Assembly (NCBI RefSeq): GCF_900475935.1
Contig: NZ_LS483431.1
Span: forward strand, 62,001-126,000
Origin: Campylobacter fetus subsp. fetus
GTDB taxonomy: Bacteria > Campylobacterota > Campylobacteria > Campylobacterales > Campylobacteraceae
Reading direction: 5' to 3'
Length of the DNA stretch: 64,000 nt
Part shown: piece after piece, positions 53,122 through 60,760 of the stretch
Position numbering within the stretch: the stretch's first letter is position 1
How the letters are laid out: every line of letters begins with the position of its first letter
Notes under the pieces: generated by a model
The model's database searches: none
Seen by the model: only the letters and a program-made list of their open reading frames with translations
What the model was told of the DNA's origin: nothing
Program-made: the position numbers and the translations under genes

Positions 53122-54744
53122 ATGAAAAGTTTTGTGATTTTATCTGCTGTGGCAGCGTTGGCTCTTAGTTTGAGTGCTAGTAGTGTAACATTAGATGGCA
53201 ATAGCGTAACGTCTCGCGATATAGTAGATATAGCAAACGGGGCAAAGGTAGGCATTGATCAAAATGCTTTTTCAAAAGTAAAAAAAGCACACGAAATTTT
53301 GCTTAACGCGGCAAAAGATGGCCAAAAAATTTATGGACTAACAGTCGGCGTCGGTCTTAATAAAGATAAAAATTTCGTTGATGCAAAGGGAAATTTAGAT
53401 CCAGAAGTCATCAAAGCATCAACGGATTTTAATATAGGTCTTATACACGCTCATTGCGGCGGTGTCGGCGAAGATCTACCGCTTCAAACGGTAAGAGCGA
53501 TCCTTGCAACTAGACTTAATAATATGCTTTTTGCCGGAGCTGGTGTTCAAGAAGAGGTCGTGCATCTTTATCAGGAGTTTTTAAATCAAGACATACTTCC
53601 TGTTATGCCAAGTAGTGGTTCAATGGGAGAAGCCGATATCACTATACTCGGACACATCGGTCTTGCGATGTTGAGAGAGGGCAAGGTCTATTATAAAGGT
53701 GTAAAAATGGACGCTGGTGAGGCTTTGCAAAAAGCAGGGCTTAAAAAACTATCACCTTTTGGTAAAGATAGTCTATCTATAGTAAGTTCAAACGCTTACT
53801 CAGCAGCGCTTGCAAATCTTGCGCTTGAAGATTTTAAGCAAGCATTTGAAGTTTCAAAAACAGTATTTGCACTCAGTTTAGAGGCTTTAAACGGTAATGT
53901 TGCTCCATTTTTACCAGAAGCTACTAGTTTAAGACCTTATCCAAGCTTTGTTTCAACTGCAAAAGAGATAAGGGAGATCTTAAAAGGTAGCTATTTGTGG
54001 GAACAAAACGGCGAGAGAGCTTTGCAAGATCCGCTTAGTTATAGAGACGCTACGTATTTGTTTGCCGCACTTAAAAGCAGTATTGACGAATTAGAAAAAC
54101 TAATGAAAATTCAGCTAAATTCTTCAGACGATAATCCGGGAATTTACATAGGAAAAAGTCCAAAAGATGCTAGTTTTCAAGAAAATAAACTATTTACAAG
54201 CGGCGGTGCAGTTGTTCCTACATCAAATTTCGAGCCGTTACTTTGGGTAGTTGAGTTTGAAAAAGCATCTATAGTTTTAGCTCATAACTCAAAAGCTTCA
54301 TCGCATAGAACTATAAAATTATCAGACGATAATTTCACCCATCTTAGCAGATTTTTAGGCACCGATAAAACTATCCATGCTTTTGGAGCTATGCAAAAAC
54401 CTTTTGTGTCATTAGCTGGTGAAAATGAATTTCTAGCAAATCCTGCTTCGCTTGATTACTCTCCCGTAGCAGGAAATATAGAAGATGTTGCGACAAATGC
54501 ACCGTTTGTAGTTCAAAAGTTCCAAAAACAGATAGATAACTTTTATCATATTTTAGGTATGGAACTCATCCACGCAGCCCAAGCTATCGATCTAAGAAAA
54601 CAAAAAGATCCAAATTTAAAATTATCAAAATCTACGCAAAAATTATATGACGAGTATAGAAAAGTTGTTGAGTTTATGAATATAGATAGACCTTTAAGCG
54701 ATGATTTCAAAAATTCGGCGAAATTTTTGAAAAATTATAAATAA
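53122..54744 (+). CDS. Exported histidine ammonia-lyase-superfamily protein without MIO triad
   Basis: 540 residues. Sec signal peptide at 1-20 (FVILSAVAALALSLSA), so the mature enzyme is periplasmic. Superfamily landmarks: catalytic-type tyrosine Y71 in IYGLTVGVGL, RLNNMLFAGAGVQ (131-143), QDPLSYR (302-308), NSSDDNP (333-339) and GNIEDVA (451-457). Where true HAL/PAL enzymes have GSVGASGDL, this reads GSMGEADIT (166-174): one residue shorter and without Ala-Ser-Gly, so the MIO cofactor cannot form. Ergothionase, which eliminates trimethylamine from ergothioneine, is the MIO-less lyase of this group that I know; that substrate is a hypothesis. First gene of a seven-gene operon. Confidence 0.85.
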   Translation: MKSFVILSAVAALALSLSASSVTLDGNSVTSRDIVDIANGAKVGIDQNAFSKVKKAHEILLNAAKDGQKIYGLTVGVGLNKDKNFVDAKGNLDPEVIKASTDFNIGLIHAHCGGVGEDLPLQTVRAILATRLNNMLFAGAGVQEEVVHLYQEFLNQDILPVMPSSGSMGEADITILGHIGLAMLREGKVYYKGVKMDAGEALQKAGLKKLSPFGKDSLSIVSSNAYSAALANLALEDFKQAFEVSKTVFALSLEALNGNVAPFLPEATSLRPYPSFVSTAKEIREILKGSYLWEQNGERALQDPLSYRDATYLFAALKSSIDELEKLMKIQLNSSDDNPGIYIGKSPKDASFQENKLFTSGGAVVPTSNFEPLLWVVEFEKASIVLAHNSKASSHRTIKLSDDNFTHLSRFLGTDKTIHAFGAMQKPFVSLAGENEFLANPASLDYSPVAGNIEDVATNAPFVVQKFQKQIDNFYHILGMELIHAAQAIDLRKQKDPNLKLSKSTQKLYDEYRKVVEFMNIDRPLSDDFKNSAKFLKNYK

Positions 54745-54756
54745 AAGGGTATCGCT

Positions 54757-55923
54757 ATGAAAAAAAGTACATTTTTGCTTATTTCAATGATCGCTAGTAT
54801 GGCTTTGGCTAATAGCGATACGTTGCAAAGTGCGCTTAAAGACGGTAAATTTAGCGGAGATATCTCCGCTTTTTCAGAAACTCGTCATATAAATGAAGGT
54901 CAAAAAAGCGTTTATTATAATAATACATCGTATATCATAGGTTCTGTTGGCTTAAAATACGAAAGTGATTTTTATAAAAATTTCAAATTCGTAACAGGCT
55001 TTAGAGGTACGGCTCCTCTATACGAAAAAGATAAAAATTATAAAACATTACACGGTACCGGAGATTCCACAGAGAGAATTTACGAAGACGATAGGATGAT
55101 GTTATCAAATTTGTATTTAGAATACAACGCGTATGATACGTCCGTTAAAGTAGGTCGTCAAGAGATGATAACTGACTGGGTCGGTAAGATAAATGACGGA
55201 GTTAGAGTGACAAATAACTCTATCGAAAATTTGACTTTGGACGCTATTTGGACACGCGCTCAAGGTAGAGTTTATATGAAAGAGATGTGGGGCTTTAAAA
55301 GTATAAATAAAGATAACGGCGGACTTTTTAACCTCGGCGGAACTTATAAATTTGATAACGGGCTTGGATTTAAAGCGTACGGTTTGTACGCGGATGAGAT
55401 ATTTTCAGCTTTTGGCGCAAAGATAATCTATGATGGACAAGTAAGCGATGAGCTTGGTGTCGGTGGTACCATTCACTACGCCCAAAGCGACGAAGATAAA
55501 AACAAAGACGATGGTAGCGTTTTTGAAGGATTACTCTATGCTAAATACTTAGATACAAAACTTACTTTAGGATATGTGAAATCAGGTAAAGAGATCGGCT
55601 GGGGGAGTTTAAATACGGCTGGAGATCAAATCGTTCAATTTGAAGAAGGCGATGTAATGTACGAAAGAGACGTTAAGACGTTTTATGCGATGTTATCAAC
55701 AAGCATAGCAGATCTTTCGGTAACTGGTATATTTGGTACGACGGAGTATAAACTTAAGGGCGGCGATGATACGAATTATAGACAAAATGAATTTAGCGCA
55801 TGGCTTAGTTATCCTATAATGAAAAATTTACAAGGACTTTTGATATATGATCAAGTATTTAAAGCTCAAGCGGGATATCCTAGTTTGACTCAAGTCGGCG
55901 TCGGGCTGATTTATAGTTTTTAA
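54757..55923 (+). CDS. Outer-membrane porin of the operon
   Basis: 388 residues: signal peptide KKSTFLLISMIASMALA, then a beta-barrel pattern of alternating strands ending in VGVGLIYSF with C-terminal phenylalanine, the outer-membrane sorting signal. It resembles the Opr/alginate-export-like porins of Campylobacterota. Gap of 12 bp after the lyase gene and 9 bp before the reductase gene. Placement suggests it admits the lyase substrate; selectivity is not readable. Confidence 0.8.
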   Translation: MKKSTFLLISMIASMALANSDTLQSALKDGKFSGDISAFSETRHINEGQKSVYYNNTSYIIGSVGLKYESDFYKNFKFVTGFRGTAPLYEKDKNYKTLHGTGDSTERIYEDDRMMLSNLYLEYNAYDTSVKVGRQEMITDWVGKINDGVRVTNNSIENLTLDAIWTRAQGRVYMKEMWGFKSINKDNGGLFNLGGTYKFDNGLGFKAYGLYADEIFSAFGAKIIYDGQVSDELGVGGTIHYAQSDEDKNKDDGSVFEGLLYAKYLDTKLTLGYVKSGKEIGWGSLNTAGDQIVQFEEGDVMYERDVKTFYAMLSTSIADLSVTGIFGTTEYKLKGGDDTNYRQNEFSAWLSYPIMKNLQGLLIYDQVFKAQAGYPSLTQVGVGLIYSF

Positions 55924-55932
55924 GGAGATTAA

Positions 55933-57486
55933 ATGAATAGTAGAAGAAAATTTTTAGGTAGCTTATGCGCTCTTACATCGGCTGCTGTTTTAAAAGCTAA
56001 TAACTTTAGCGATGAGCAGTTTAAGTGGGACGAAGAATGGGATGTTTTGGTAGTCGGATCGGGATTTGCCGGTACGGCTGCTGCTTGTCAAGCAATCGAT
56101 GAGGGCGTAAAAACATTGCTGATAGATAAAATGCCCGTTCTTGGAGGAAATTCAGCTATAAACGGCGGAGCGTTTGCGGTCGTAAATTCAAAATTTCAAA
56201 AGGTTCGCGGCATAGAGGATTCTTATGAGCTTTACGTAAAAGATATTTTAAAAGCCGGACTTGGGTTAAATAGAATGGATCTAGTGGAAGTTATAGCTAA
56301 AAACGGAAATGACGCTTATGAATATACGTTAAAAAAAGGCGTGTATTACAGAGACGCGCTAGGTCAGTTCGGCGGACATTCTGTTCCAAGAACGATTTGG
56401 CCAGAAATAAACTCGGGCGGCAAGATCACGATACCTTTGCAAGAATACATTATGAAAAGCGGTGGAACGATCAGGACTAGGGTTGTATTAGATGATTTTA
56501 TAAGAAATGATAACGGAAAAATCATCGGAGTAAAAGTTAGGGAAAATTACGACTTTATATTTGATCCTTTAAAAAACGAAGATGATAATAAAAGCGGTAT
56601 CGTGAAATTTTACAAGGTAAATGGCGGAGTCGTTATGGCAACGGGCGGTTTCGCTTATGATGTAAATTTCAGACAAACGGTCGATCCGAAATTAACTGCG
56701 GATCTAGACTGTACGAATCACTATGGTGCAACGGCGTACGCTCTAAAAACTATGATGAGAAACGGCGCTGATACGGTTGATCTAAAATGGATACAACTAG
56801 GACCTTGGGGGAGTCCTGATGAAAAAGGATTTGGTATAGCTCCTGTTTTTGCGATACCTGCTTTTAGTTATGGCGTAATGGTCGATGCAAGAACAGGAAA
56901 AAGATTTGTCAATGAGCTTGCAGATAGAAAAATTCGCTCAGATGCCATTTTAAAAATGCATAAAAATCCAGACGGAAGCATAACTCATCCAGTTGTTATA
57001 TGTGATAGCATCGGCGCACAAGGCACTACAAAAGCAAACGTACAAAGAGGAATAGATAAAAAAGTCATAAGAGTTTTTGATACGCTTAAAGAATTAGCAG
57101 ATTTTTATAAAATTCCTTACGAAGGGCTTAAAAAAACCGTTGATGATTATACGAGGTATTCAAAAAACGGAAAAGACGAAGAGTTTGACAAACCGTTTTT
57201 TAAATTTAACGATATGATCCCGGATCTCACAAAACCGCCTTTTTACGCATGGCAAGCCTTGCCAAAAGTTCATCATACGATGGGCGGAGTGAAAATAGAC
57301 ACCGAAGCTAGAGTTATAGACAAAAACGGAAATATAATCGAAGGGCTTTTTTCTGCCGGAGAAGCAGTCGGCGGACCGCATGGAGCTAGCAGGCTCGGAA
57401 GTTGTGCTATACCTGATTGTTTAGTTTTTGGAAGGATAGCCGGCAAAAACGCTGCTAATCTAGCAAAAAAGGAGAAAAAATGTTAA
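55933..57486 (+). CDS. Tat-exported FAD reductase, fumarate/urocanate-reductase superfamily
   Basis: 517 residues, FccA-like. Twin-arginine leader SRRKFLG at 3-9. FAD loop VVGSGFAG at 40-47. Catalytic residues of the flavocytochrome c family are present: R332 in NELADRK, H447-H448 in KVHHTMGGV and R487 in GASRLGS. The histidine that binds the second carboxylate of fumarate (usually in a HPT motif) is replaced in IQLGPWGSPDE (287-297), so fumarate is not the expected substrate; urocanate, thiourocanate or another enoate fits better. It has no heme or FMN domain of its own. Overlaps the next cytochrome gene by 7 bp. Confidence 0.88.
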   Translation: MNSRRKFLGSLCALTSAAVLKANNFSDEQFKWDEEWDVLVVGSGFAGTAAACQAIDEGVKTLLIDKMPVLGGNSAINGGAFAVVNSKFQKVRGIEDSYELYVKDILKAGLGLNRMDLVEVIAKNGNDAYEYTLKKGVYYRDALGQFGGHSVPRTIWPEINSGGKITIPLQEYIMKSGGTIRTRVVLDDFIRNDNGKIIGVKVRENYDFIFDPLKNEDDNKSGIVKFYKVNGGVVMATGGFAYDVNFRQTVDPKLTADLDCTNHYGATAYALKTMMRNGADTVDLKWIQLGPWGSPDEKGFGIAPVFAIPAFSYGVMVDARTGKRFVNELADRKIRSDAILKMHKNPDGSITHPVVICDSIGAQGTTKANVQRGIDKKVIRVFDTLKELADFYKIPYEGLKKTVDDYTRYSKNGKDEEFDKPFFKFNDMIPDLTKPPFYAWQALPKVHHTMGGVKIDTEARVIDKNGNIIEGLFSAGEAVGGPHGASRLGSCAIPDCLVFGRIAGKNAANLAKKEKKC

Positions 57487-57872
57487 AAATTTTCAAGATA
57501 TTTTTAACTATATGTATCGGACTATCTATAAGCTCTTTTGCCGCAAATTTAGATCTTAATACATTTACGAAAGAAAATTATCCTATAAAGGCTCATCACG
57601 AGAAACTTGGATTTGACTGCAAAAATTGTCACAAAGAAAAAAATCCAAACGAATATAAAGCTCTAAAAACAGATGAGTGTTTGAGCTGCCATAAAAGCTA
57701 CAAACGTTTAGCAGAGAGAAGCGGTCACCTTGGATATGATGATAACATACATAGCAGTCCGCATTATCCTAATATGGATTGCAATAACTGTCATAAATCA
57801 CACAAGTCTTCACAAAATTATTGTGTAATGTGCCATTCGCAAGATGGTATGAAAAAAATATTGGTGCCATAA
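57480..57872 (+). CDS. Small periplasmic tetraheme cytochrome c (FccB-like)
   Basis: 130 residues with a signal peptide and four CxxCH sites (CKNCH, CLSCH, CNNCH, CVMCH). It corresponds to the heme domain that Shewanella flavocytochrome c carries fused to the flavin domain; here it is separate, as in Wolinella FccB. Direct electron donor to the flavoprotein, by inference. Confidence 0.88.
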   Translation: MLKIFKIFLTICIGLSISSFAANLDLNTFTKENYPIKAHHEKLGFDCKNCHKEKNPNEYKALKTDECLSCHKSYKRLAERSGHLGYDDNIHSSPHYPNMDCNNCHKSHKSSQNYCVMCHSQDGMKKILVP

Positions 57873-57878
57873 GGAGAT

Positions 57879-58454
57879 ATGATGAAAAATATTTTTATAA
57901 AAATTTGCATATTTTGTATTTTTGCATTCGTCATATTTTTTGGCGGTAACTCTTTGATACACGCTACAAGCGACGATAAATTTTGTACCGTTTGTCACGA
58001 ATGGATGGATCCTATGGTAGAAGCTTATGGGCAAAGCATTCACGGAGGTGCGAATAATCACGGATTTAAGGCAAGTTGCACTAGTTGCCATTTGCCTAAT
58101 GATAGTTATGTAAAATACGTTTTCAAAAAAGGCTTAAACGGCATCAGCGAAGCTACTCATATGGTTTTTAACGATGCAAAAGAGATGGATTGGCAAGGCA
58201 ATAGAAAAAATCGCGAGGAATTCGTATATGATAGCGGTTGTATAAGTTGCCATCAAACAATTTTAGATATAAACTCAAGCAATCAAAATATCAATGATAT
58301 GCATAATCTATACGCGGCGTCTATTCAAAATAAAGATAAAAAACTAAGTTGCGTAAGCTGTCATAAAACCGTAGGTCATAAAAATTTGGGTAAAATACTG
58401 TATGAGATCAAACATCCGCCTGTCGGAGACTGGGGAGATGAAATAAAAAGATAA
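57879..58454 (+). CDS. NapC/NrfH-type membrane tetraheme cytochrome c (FccC-like)
   Basis: 191 residues: an uncleaved N-terminal membrane anchor (FIKICIFCIFAFVIFF) and four CxxCH motifs (CTVCH, CTSCH, CISCH, CVSCH). Family members oxidise membrane menaquinol and feed periplasmic reductases. Two adjacent ATGs at 57879 and 57882 are possible starts. Completes the quinol-to-flavoprotein chain. Confidence 0.88.
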   Translation: MMKNIFIKICIFCIFAFVIFFGGNSLIHATSDDKFCTVCHEWMDPMVEAYGQSIHGGANNHGFKASCTSCHLPNDSYVKYVFKKGLNGISEATHMVFNDAKEMDWQGNRKNREEFVYDSGCISCHQTILDINSSNQNINDMHNLYAASIQNKDKKLSCVSCHKTVGHKNLGKILYEIKHPPVGDWGDEIKR

Positions 58455-58462
58455 GGAGCCTT

Positions 58463-60082
58463 ATGAAAGAGATATTATACAAAAATAATATCTTTATAAT
58501 ATTTTCTATATTTTTCTTATTGCTTATGATAGGAAATTATTACCTAAATCGCTCATTTGTGAAAGAAGTTCTCACAAATGAGCAGCTTAGTATTTTAAAA
58601 AATTCAAGCGACAAGATACAAGAATGGCTTGAAAATAAAAAAACTAGTCTCAAATTCATTAGTTTGCTTGTCGCAAATTTCGACCATACGAAAGAGCAAA
58701 ATACTATACAAGATATACTTATTAAATCTCAGGAAATAGCAAATTTTTCAAGTACGTACGTCGGATATGAAAACGACACGATGCTTTCTAGCAGAGTATT
58801 TCAAGGTCCAAAAAATTACGCGCCGACGCAAAGACCTTGGTATATAAACACTGTTTTACAAAACGGAATTTACATCACCAAGCCATATCTTGATGCCGGA
58901 CTTAAAATTCCAGTTATATCGATTTGTCAAAGTATAAAACGAGAAAATAAACTACAAGGCGTTATTTGCGGCGTGATATCTTTCGAGAGTATAAAAAATG
59001 AAATTTTAAATTTGAGACTAGAAAACGGATATATATTTTTAATAGACGAAGATCTTAACATCTTACTTCATCCAGATAGCGAAACAGGATTTTCCCAAAC
59101 AAAATTTAATATAGAAAATTTAGATTTTATCAAATCGTTAAGCCATGAAACGCAAAATGAAATTCTAAATTTCAAACCGCTTGAAAACTCAAAATTGATC
59201 TTGGTTACAAAAACGCTAAAAGATAATATATATAACAAAATAAACGAGCAATTTATAATAAATCTTATGATATATGTTATCAGTATTATTTTATTTTTGA
59301 TATTGGCTTACTTTTACAACAAAAGGTTAGAGCGACAATCAAAAATATTTGAAAAAGCAAAAAGAGATTACGAAGTTCTTTTGTTCCAACAAACTAAAAT
59401 GGCGGAGCTCGGTCAGATGATAGCGGCGCTTTCTCATCAGTGGATACAGCCTTTAAATTCACTCGGAATTTTCCTTGGAAATTTGATGCAGTTTAAAAAA
59501 ATGAATAAACTAAGCGATGAAATTTTTTATGACAATATCACTAGATCTTTACAAAATATAGATTATATGTCAAAAACTATGGATATGTTTAAGAACTTTT
59601 ATAAGATTGAAAAAAACGTTCAAGAATTTGATATACAAAAAGCGATAAACGATACGGTATGTGTTCTTTTTCCGGTAAAATCAACGATAGATATCAAAGT
59701 TACCATAGCAAAAGGCGTTACGCCGATGTGTAAAAATTATATAAATGAATTTAAACAGATAACTGCTTGTTTGATCCAAAATTCAAAACAAATTTTACAA
59801 AATAGTAAAAACAAAAAAAGAACCAGAATAGTAGTTAATATAAAACAAACTCAAACTCATTTTGTTATCAGAGTTATCGACAACGGTGATGGAATAGCTC
59901 AAAATTTCAAAGACGATCTTTTCACTCCTTTTATGAGTACGAAAGGCAGCTCCGGACTTGGTTTGTATATATCAAAATTGATAGCAAATAAAAAATGCGG
60001 CGGAGATCTATATGTAAGCAGATATCAAAATCCGACTATTTTTACGCTAACTATACTAAAAAAGGTAAAAGATGATAGATGA
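58463..60082 (+). CDS. Sensor histidine kinase with periplasmic dCache domain
   Basis: 539 residues: transmembrane helix near 10-27, periplasmic double-Cache domain, second helix near 265-285, dimerisation domain with phospho-histidine in ALSHQWIQPLN, and ATPase motifs NGDGIAQNF and GSSGLGLYISK. The Cache domain has the amino-acid-sensor spacing Y-x4-R-x-W-Y (YAPTQRPWY) and a Y-x-D eighteen and twenty residues after the R. The usual ammonium-binding Asp in the later GVICGVISF strand is replaced by a hydrophobic residue. Overlaps the response regulator by 11 bp. Confidence 0.9.
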   Translation: MKEILYKNNIFIIFSIFFLLLMIGNYYLNRSFVKEVLTNEQLSILKNSSDKIQEWLENKKTSLKFISLLVANFDHTKEQNTIQDILIKSQEIANFSSTYVGYENDTMLSSRVFQGPKNYAPTQRPWYINTVLQNGIYITKPYLDAGLKIPVISICQSIKRENKLQGVICGVISFESIKNEILNLRLENGYIFLIDEDLNILLHPDSETGFSQTKFNIENLDFIKSLSHETQNEILNFKPLENSKLILVTKTLKDNIYNKINEQFIINLMIYVISIILFLILAYFYNKRLERQSKIFEKAKRDYEVLLFQQTKMAELGQMIAALSHQWIQPLNSLGIFLGNLMQFKKMNKLSDEIFYDNITRSLQNIDYMSKTMDMFKNFYKIEKNVQEFDIQKAINDTVCVLFPVKSTIDIKVTIAKGVTPMCKNYINEFKQITACLIQNSKQILQNSKNKKRTRIVVNIKQTQTHFVIRVIDNGDGIAQNFKDDLFTPFMSTKGSSGLGLYISKLIANKKCGGDLYVSRYQNPTIFTLTILKKVKDDR

Positions 60083-60760
60083 AAATATACTTAAAAAACT
60101 AAAAAATATATCGGTTTTGCTTGTTGAAGATGATGAAAATACAAGATTTGCCATAACTCAATCCTTGCAGTTTTATTGCAAAAAAATAGACGTCGCAAGC
60201 GACGGGCTTGAAGGATTTGACAAATTTTTTAAAGATAATTTTGATATCGTAGTTACTGATATAAATTTACCGAATTTAAACGGTCTTGAGATGCTAGATG
60301 AGATTAAAAAAGAGCCCCGCATGTAGCATCTATCATAATCACATCGTACGATACAAGCGAAAATATACTTGCAAGTATCGAGCTTGGGGCGTACAATTAT
60401 CTTAGAAAACCTTTTAAAATCGAAGAGCTTCAAATAACTATTTTAATGGCTACAAAAAATTTATACGACAATAAAATATCCTTAAAAGACGACTATGAAT
60501 ATGACCTAGCTTCAAAAACGCTCTACAAAGACGGCGATATGATCTCATTTACAAAAATAGAATCAAAACTTCTGTATCTGCTTGTAAGCAATATCGATAA
60601 AATAGTAAGTTACGAGATGATCGAAAATTTCGTATGGGGCGATAAGGCGATGAGTAGCGAAGCCTTGCGTATGGTAATCAAAAAGATAAGATTAAAAACC
60701 ACAAACGATATCATCGAAAATATTTCGGGTGTCGGATATAGAGTCATATCAAAGAAGTAA
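60072..60760 (+). pseudogene. OmpR-family response regulator, frameshifted
   Basis: The receiver domain (VLLVEDDENTRF; phospho-Asp in VVTDINLPNLNG) runs to a stop at 60324-60326. From 60320 another frame continues exactly where the receiver should: HVASIIITSYDTSEN, LGAYNYLRKPF, then a winged-helix DNA-binding domain ending GVGYRVISKK. One base is missing in the CCCC run at 60315-60318; a fifth C would restore a protein of about 229 residues. Could be a real mutation or an assembly error. Cognate regulator of the kinase by overlap. Confidence 0.85.

Follow-up and report, generated by a model that had tools for sequence, protein, structure and literature searches.

We find that Campylobacter fetus subsp. 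fetus encodes a signal-peptide-bearing member of the aromatic-amino-acid-lyase family that lacks the MIO-forming triad and is, with considerable confidence, an ergothionase. Its gene is the first in a conserved operon that also encodes a dedicated reductase and cytochromes; this arrangement suggests that the breakdown product is breathed instead of oxygen. We consider it likely that the whole pathway is a periplasmic ergothioneine respiration with thiourocanate as the terminal electron acceptor. With somewhat greater reserve, we favour the fuller reading that, in at least 17 Campylobacterota genomes, ergothioneine respiration is complete in one periplasmic operon, which makes and reduces its own acceptor outside the cytoplasm without any uptake. 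Ergothioneine is a dietary compound that animals take up by a selective transporter and that is promoted as a protective nutrient (PMC13405746, PMC7653990). If our reading is true, an antioxidant of host or dietary origin serves these Campylobacter as a respiratory substrate, from which they obtain an electron acceptor in a self-contained, anaerobic, extracytoplasmic process that gives off trimethylamine.

A predicted exported lyase without the MIO triad

The lyase is the only PF00221 protein in the 1.76-Mb genome. Within the 64,000-nucleotide stretch analysed here (the window), its open reading frame has the exact bounds 53122–54744 on the plus strand and contains the following features:

53122..54744, plus strand: aromatic-amino-acid-lyase family protein, exported and without MIO; a proposed periplasmic ergothionase (540 amino acids; PF00221, 391 bits)
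53122..53181, plus strand: Sec-type signal peptide, approximately residues 1–20, cleavage near SLSAS-S (by inspection; like the N termini of orthologues)
53617..53643, plus strand: GSMGEADIT loop, residues 166–174, where the MIO-forming GSVGASGDL is expected (MAFFT alignment with ergothionase and MIO enzymes)

The superfamily landmarks named in the original prediction are all present: Y71, QDPLSYR (Q302–R308), SSDDNP (S334–P339) and IEDVA (I453–A457). The same prediction held that GSVGASGDL had become GSMGEADIT with one residue deleted, and the alignment bears this out: in the loop G166–T174, the Ala-Ser-Gly of MIO enzymes is replaced by Glu-Ala, one residue fewer (GSMGEA-DIT). GEA-DIT is conserved in 15 of 15 full-length Campylobacterota orthologues aligned (60–96% identical), and the lyase is under purifying selection, with a dN/dS of roughly 0.06–0.08 against its closest relatives; the loss of the MIO triad is thus neither a chance event nor a sequencing error. 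Tyr71, Glu170 and Lys426 are conserved in the alignment with relatives and are candidate counterparts of the catalytic residues reported for Treponema denticola ergothionase.

The N terminus (MKSFVILSAVAALALSLSAS) has a basic residue followed by a hydrophobic stretch and small residues, and the N termini of orthologues in the clade resemble it. Judged by eye from these N termini, the lyase is probably exported. Export had been predicted as a departure from classical histidine ammonia-lyases, and the signal-like N terminus agrees with this; it is not, however, a peculiarity of this protein, being common to the whole ergothionase-like clade. A promoter scan (41 versus 36.4 ± 5.2 in shuffles) gave no clear excess and is unused as evidence, and an AlphaFold model built from a three-sequence alignment (mean pLDDT 34) was discarded.

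The lyase groups with ergothionase

The top match of the lyase in the Protein Data Bank is T. denticola ergothionase (6S7J, E = 3.3e-96), with the best MIO enzyme second to it (E = 3.3e-55). Histidine ammonia-lyase models score the protein at 268 bits against a cut-off of 539 (TIGR01225) and 265 bits against 524 (NF006871), and the alignment finds no Ala-Ser-Gly triad in it. Closest homologues carrying that triad elsewhere in the loop were sought and not found. Instead, the lyase shares the shortened, Glu-containing loop of ergothionase (SSIGEG-DIT in 6S7J). Two maximum-likelihood trees of lyases, the second one wider, agree with the database E-values that full-length homology is closer to ergothionase than to MIO enzymes. 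In the first, the lyase, ergothionase and exported MIO-less relatives, together with the MIO-less protein L063, are separated from other lyases by a branch with 100/100 support; in the wider tree, a group including the lyase and T. denticola ergothionase has 96/93 support. Members of the tree group all have the shortened loop, and nearly all have a Lys in a QKP/QKT motif; a protein from Sinorhizobium meliloti pSymA does not, having VEAPL in place of this motif.

The original prediction offered ergothioneine as an example of a substrate for a lyase without MIO. The best structural match, the trees and the relatives found beside thiourocanate hydratase (below) all support this at the level of sequence, and the gene product very probably splits ergothioneine. 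A GEA-DIT loop, an export signal and a linked reductase together offer an easy way to recognise such enzymes in genomes, where they are otherwise prone to annotation as histidine ammonia-lyase.

Relatives of the lyase and their neighbourhoods

A contig scan gave two close relatives, and a wider search covered a genome panel and plasmids. The closest relatives outside Campylobacterota, approximately 50–53% identical, lie on large replicons of Burkholderia, Paraburkholderia and Sinorhizobium and have signal-peptide-like N termini as well. Four exported relatives (53%, 42%, 37% and 37% identical) adjoin thiourocanate hydratase in full or partial Ert clusters, in Burkholderia arboris, Paracoccus denitrificans and two Campylobacterota (G254 and G084). 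In B. arboris, the lyase (53% identical) lies some 1.4 kb downstream of a protein that shares 68% identity with the G254 thiourocanate hydratase, alongside an ErtC-like S-Me-THD/DUF917 protein and homologues of ErtD and ErtE. In G254, from a different family within the order, the lyase (37% identical) comes after genes for thiourocanate hydratase (974 bits, cut-off 930) and ErtD (676 bits, cut-off 600), both above their NCBIfam cut-offs, for an ErtE-like hydrolase slightly below its cut-off (505 bits, cut-off 520) and for an MFS transporter. In G084, from the window's own family, it occurs with a hydratase just under the cut-off (911 bits), a DUF917-type protein and an MFS transporter, and the P. 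denitrificans relative adjoins a hydratase match. The genomic tie to thiourocanate metabolism is thus found in relatives 37–53% identical to the lyase, whereas the window locus has a reductase instead. Because its members reside in ergothioneine-degradation clusters, the clade would, by association, act on ergothioneine or near analogues. The Ert-cluster organisms pair a secreted lyase with a transporter and a hydratase that looks cytosolic, which suggests cleavage in the periplasm and subsequent import of thiourocanate.

In Paraburkholderia sp. PGU19 (L056, 3862–7563), an exported GEA-DIT lyase, 51% identical, adjoins an ordinary HutU and an ornithine cyclodeaminase family protein; the urocanase scores 967 bits with the HutU model versus 688 with the thiourocanate model. 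This locus is a candidate hercynine route, and its HutU would fit urocanate release there. Exported MIO-less lyases also occur on S. meliloti pSymA (L055, 8001–9545; L062, 7920–9560), annotated as hutH in one strain; the L062 gene has an ABC transporter and an annotated dimethylsulfoniopropionate lyase gene in its vicinity. The pSymA homologue (51% identical) was dropped as support for ergothioneine, given its GQA-DMT loop and VEAPL without the conserved Lys; its substrate is possibly another betaine. A separate MIO-less group with a GCA-DIG loop, 26–29% identical to the window lyase, lies upstream of thiourocanate hydratase in Rhizobium, Ochrobactrum and Shinella (L079, 223–1797; L081, 1454–3061; L082, 1296–2831). 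Plasmid-borne aromatic amino acid lyases of Klebsiella (L064, 2953–4482) and Rhizobium (L066, 977–2461) have differently shortened loops at the triad site (GSVGY---L and GS---AGYL, respectively), and annotated neighbours of the former are a HutD family protein, hutC and formimidoylglutamate deiminase.

The lyase operon encodes a reductase and cytochromes

The genes downstream of the lyase, which did not figure in the original prediction, change the meaning of the finding. The lyase is first in the operon and is followed, in order, by:

54757..55923, plus strand: outer-membrane porin of the Opr/Campylo_MOMP type, through which the substrate likely enters (NF033923, 486 bits, above cut-off)
55933..57486, plus strand: FAD reductase of the flavocytochrome c/fumarate reductase type, exported via Tat (SRRKFLG); a proposed thiourocanate reductase (TIGR01813, 443 bits, cut-off 285; best structural match UrdA, 6T85)
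57480..57872, plus strand: secreted tetraheme cytochrome c3-like protein, four CxxCH (PF14537; CxxCH count)
57879..58454, plus strand: membrane-anchored NapC/NrfH-family tetraheme quinol dehydrogenase, four CxxCH (PF03264, 86 bits)
58463..60082, plus strand: dCache-domain sensor histidine kinase (PF02743 and PF02518)
60072..60760, plus strand: OmpR-type response regulator, frameshifted in this genome (alignment to the intact L034 regulator)

A single operon combines a predicted exported FAD reductase, a tetraheme cytochrome and a quinol-dehydrogenase cytochrome. The regulator lacks one A in a run at 60306–60311 (six A versus seven in its relative L034), which reflects an assembly error, phase variation or a real loss.

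In each of the 17 loci found, 16 in the family and one, G304, in a different family, the lyase occurs together with the flavoprotein, cytochrome c3 and NrfH-like genes. Among the 16 family loci, the kinase and regulator are present in 14 and the porin occupies the same place in 10. In G304, the same genes are linked in another order, with a divergent kinase–regulator pair and the lyase last. Across 153 family genomes, a reductase orthologue (68–100% identity) is found in exactly the 16 that have the lyase and in no other; other flavoproteins are at most about 50% identical to the window reductase. That lyase and reductase are gained and lost together is our strongest argument for a shared pathway. 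Damaged copies, with internal stops or split matches, occur elsewhere (the lyase of G030, which has internal stops, and the reductase of G062). No urocanase-family enzyme was found in the window's genome or in any of the 16 family genomes with an orthologous lyase, so the product could not be hydrated there by the known route; among the 153 genomes, only G084 and G133 have a urocanase-family gene.

Several family genomes, including G047, G053 and G064, encode up to seven such flavoprotein reductases each, mostly 40–50% identical to that of the window. With so many paralogues, these Campylobacter may have many unassigned organic electron acceptors.

The reductase active site and competing readings

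The nearest relative of the flavoprotein in the Protein Data Bank is the urocanate reductase UrdA (6T85), followed by Shewanella fumarate reductases. The flavoprotein orthologues retain the UrdA residues Arg411, His520 and Arg560; they keep the proton-donor Arg of the fumarate reductase family together with the His and Arg that hold the substrate carboxylate. The two Arg residues are essential in UrdA (PMC7921117). At the hinge position, they have Gly, in contrast to the His of fumarate reductase and Tyr373 of UrdA. UrdA needs Asp388, which contacts the imidazole ring, and gut UrdAs have Asp, Asn or Gln there (PMC7921117); the flavoprotein orthologues have FAIP at this site and none of these three residues. 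Since Asp388, Tyr373 and the fumarate-reductase His are all missing, the substrate would be an enoate with a ring unlike that of urocanate and a tail that is not fumarate. Thiourocanate would fit this description.

These residues bear directly on the best-surviving alternative, which we nevertheless regard as improbable: that the lyase takes trimethylamine off hercynine, or another histidine betaine, to give urocanate, and that the flavoprotein is a divergent urocanate reductase. UrdA being the nearest solved relative speaks for urocanate, as does the Paraburkholderia lyase next to an ordinary HutU, but the absence of an aspartate that UrdA requires speaks against it (PMC7921117), and four other lyase relatives sit with thiourocanate hydratase and no urocanase. 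Slightly less probable still is that the lyase is a true ergothionase, cleaving for detoxification, trimethylamine release or signalling, while the flavoprotein reduces an unrelated acceptor. The abundance of paralogous flavoproteins in Campylobacter genomes would allow an incidental neighbour; against this, lyase and reductase orthologues share the same 16 genomes out of 153 and are still linked after rearrangement in another family, and the lyase product is the kind of enoate that these enzymes reduce. We give little credence to the idea that the lyase is a MIO-independent histidine ammonia-lyase whose urocanate goes to the reductase: superfamily membership and the retained substrate-clamp landmarks are compatible with it, but the triad is gone, scores are half the HutH cut-offs, the genome has no urocanase and the nearest relatives are ergothionase-like. 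The least credible reading, a decayed, non-catalytic protein, could draw on the lost catalytic triad, the frameshifted neighbouring regulator and the internal stops in the G030 orthologue, but conflicts with the low dN/dS and with identical active-site motifs in orthologues from two families.

A model for ergothioneine respiration

For the preferred reading, ergothioneine respiration, we infer the substrates, the direction of electron flow and the roles of the porin and regulator as follows. Ergothioneine would enter through the co-encoded porin, and the MIO-less lyase would convert it to trimethylamine and thiourocanate, an α,β-unsaturated acid; because trimethylamine is a good leaving group, no MIO electrophile would be needed. 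The Tat-exported flavoprotein would then reduce the thiourocanate double bond to the propionate in the periplasm. Menaquinol may supply the electrons, which would reach the flavoprotein by way of the NrfH-like cytochrome and then the tetraheme c3, as in known flavoprotein–tetraheme systems (PMC4427408). The dCache kinase and OmpR-type regulator would sense the substrate and switch on the operon. From general Campylobacter physiology, formate or hydrogen would be the likely donors.

Comparison with known systems

The operon is built of known parts; what is new is an exported ergothionase, a well-supported reading, paired with a dedicated reductase and cytochromes. Among the best matches in the literature naming both Campylobacter and ergothioneine, taken by title and the start of the abstract, none concerned a Campylobacter ergothionase.

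The lyase and T. denticola ergothionase (6S7J, 6S7Q) belong to the same superfamily, with 40% identity over the aligned length. Both lack the MIO triad, have a loop Glu with one residue missing and share the QDPLS, SxN and QK motifs, but the crystallised T. denticola sequence starts at the fold, without a signal peptide, whereas the lyase has a predicted one. The lyases of Ert clusters (thiourocanate hydratase NF058530, ErtD NF058538 and ErtE NF058540) are likewise exported, MIO-less members of the same clade. In those clusters, thiourocanate is hydrated and degraded towards glutamate; in contrast, the window's genome has no hydratase and has a reductase in its place.

The flavoprotein resembles UrdA (6T85) in its carboxylate-binding and proton-donor residues but lacks Asp388, Tyr373 and the N-terminal FMN domain, and it is accompanied by separate c3 and NrfH-like cytochromes. 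A periplasmic flavoprotein with a separate tetraheme cytochrome as terminal reductase is also found in the Geobacter methacrylate reductase Mrd/Mcc and in Wolinella FccA with its heme subunit; in the passages of PMC4427408 consulted, these are not described with an acceptor-making lyase, whereas the window operon includes one. In the cross-feeding between gut bacteria described by Zhou et al. 2025 (as relayed in PMC13405746), thiourocanate from ergothioneine likewise supports anaerobic energy metabolism, as we propose here. In that account, the steps are split between Clostridium symbiosum and Bacteroides xylanisolvens, whereas here both appear in one periplasmic operon.
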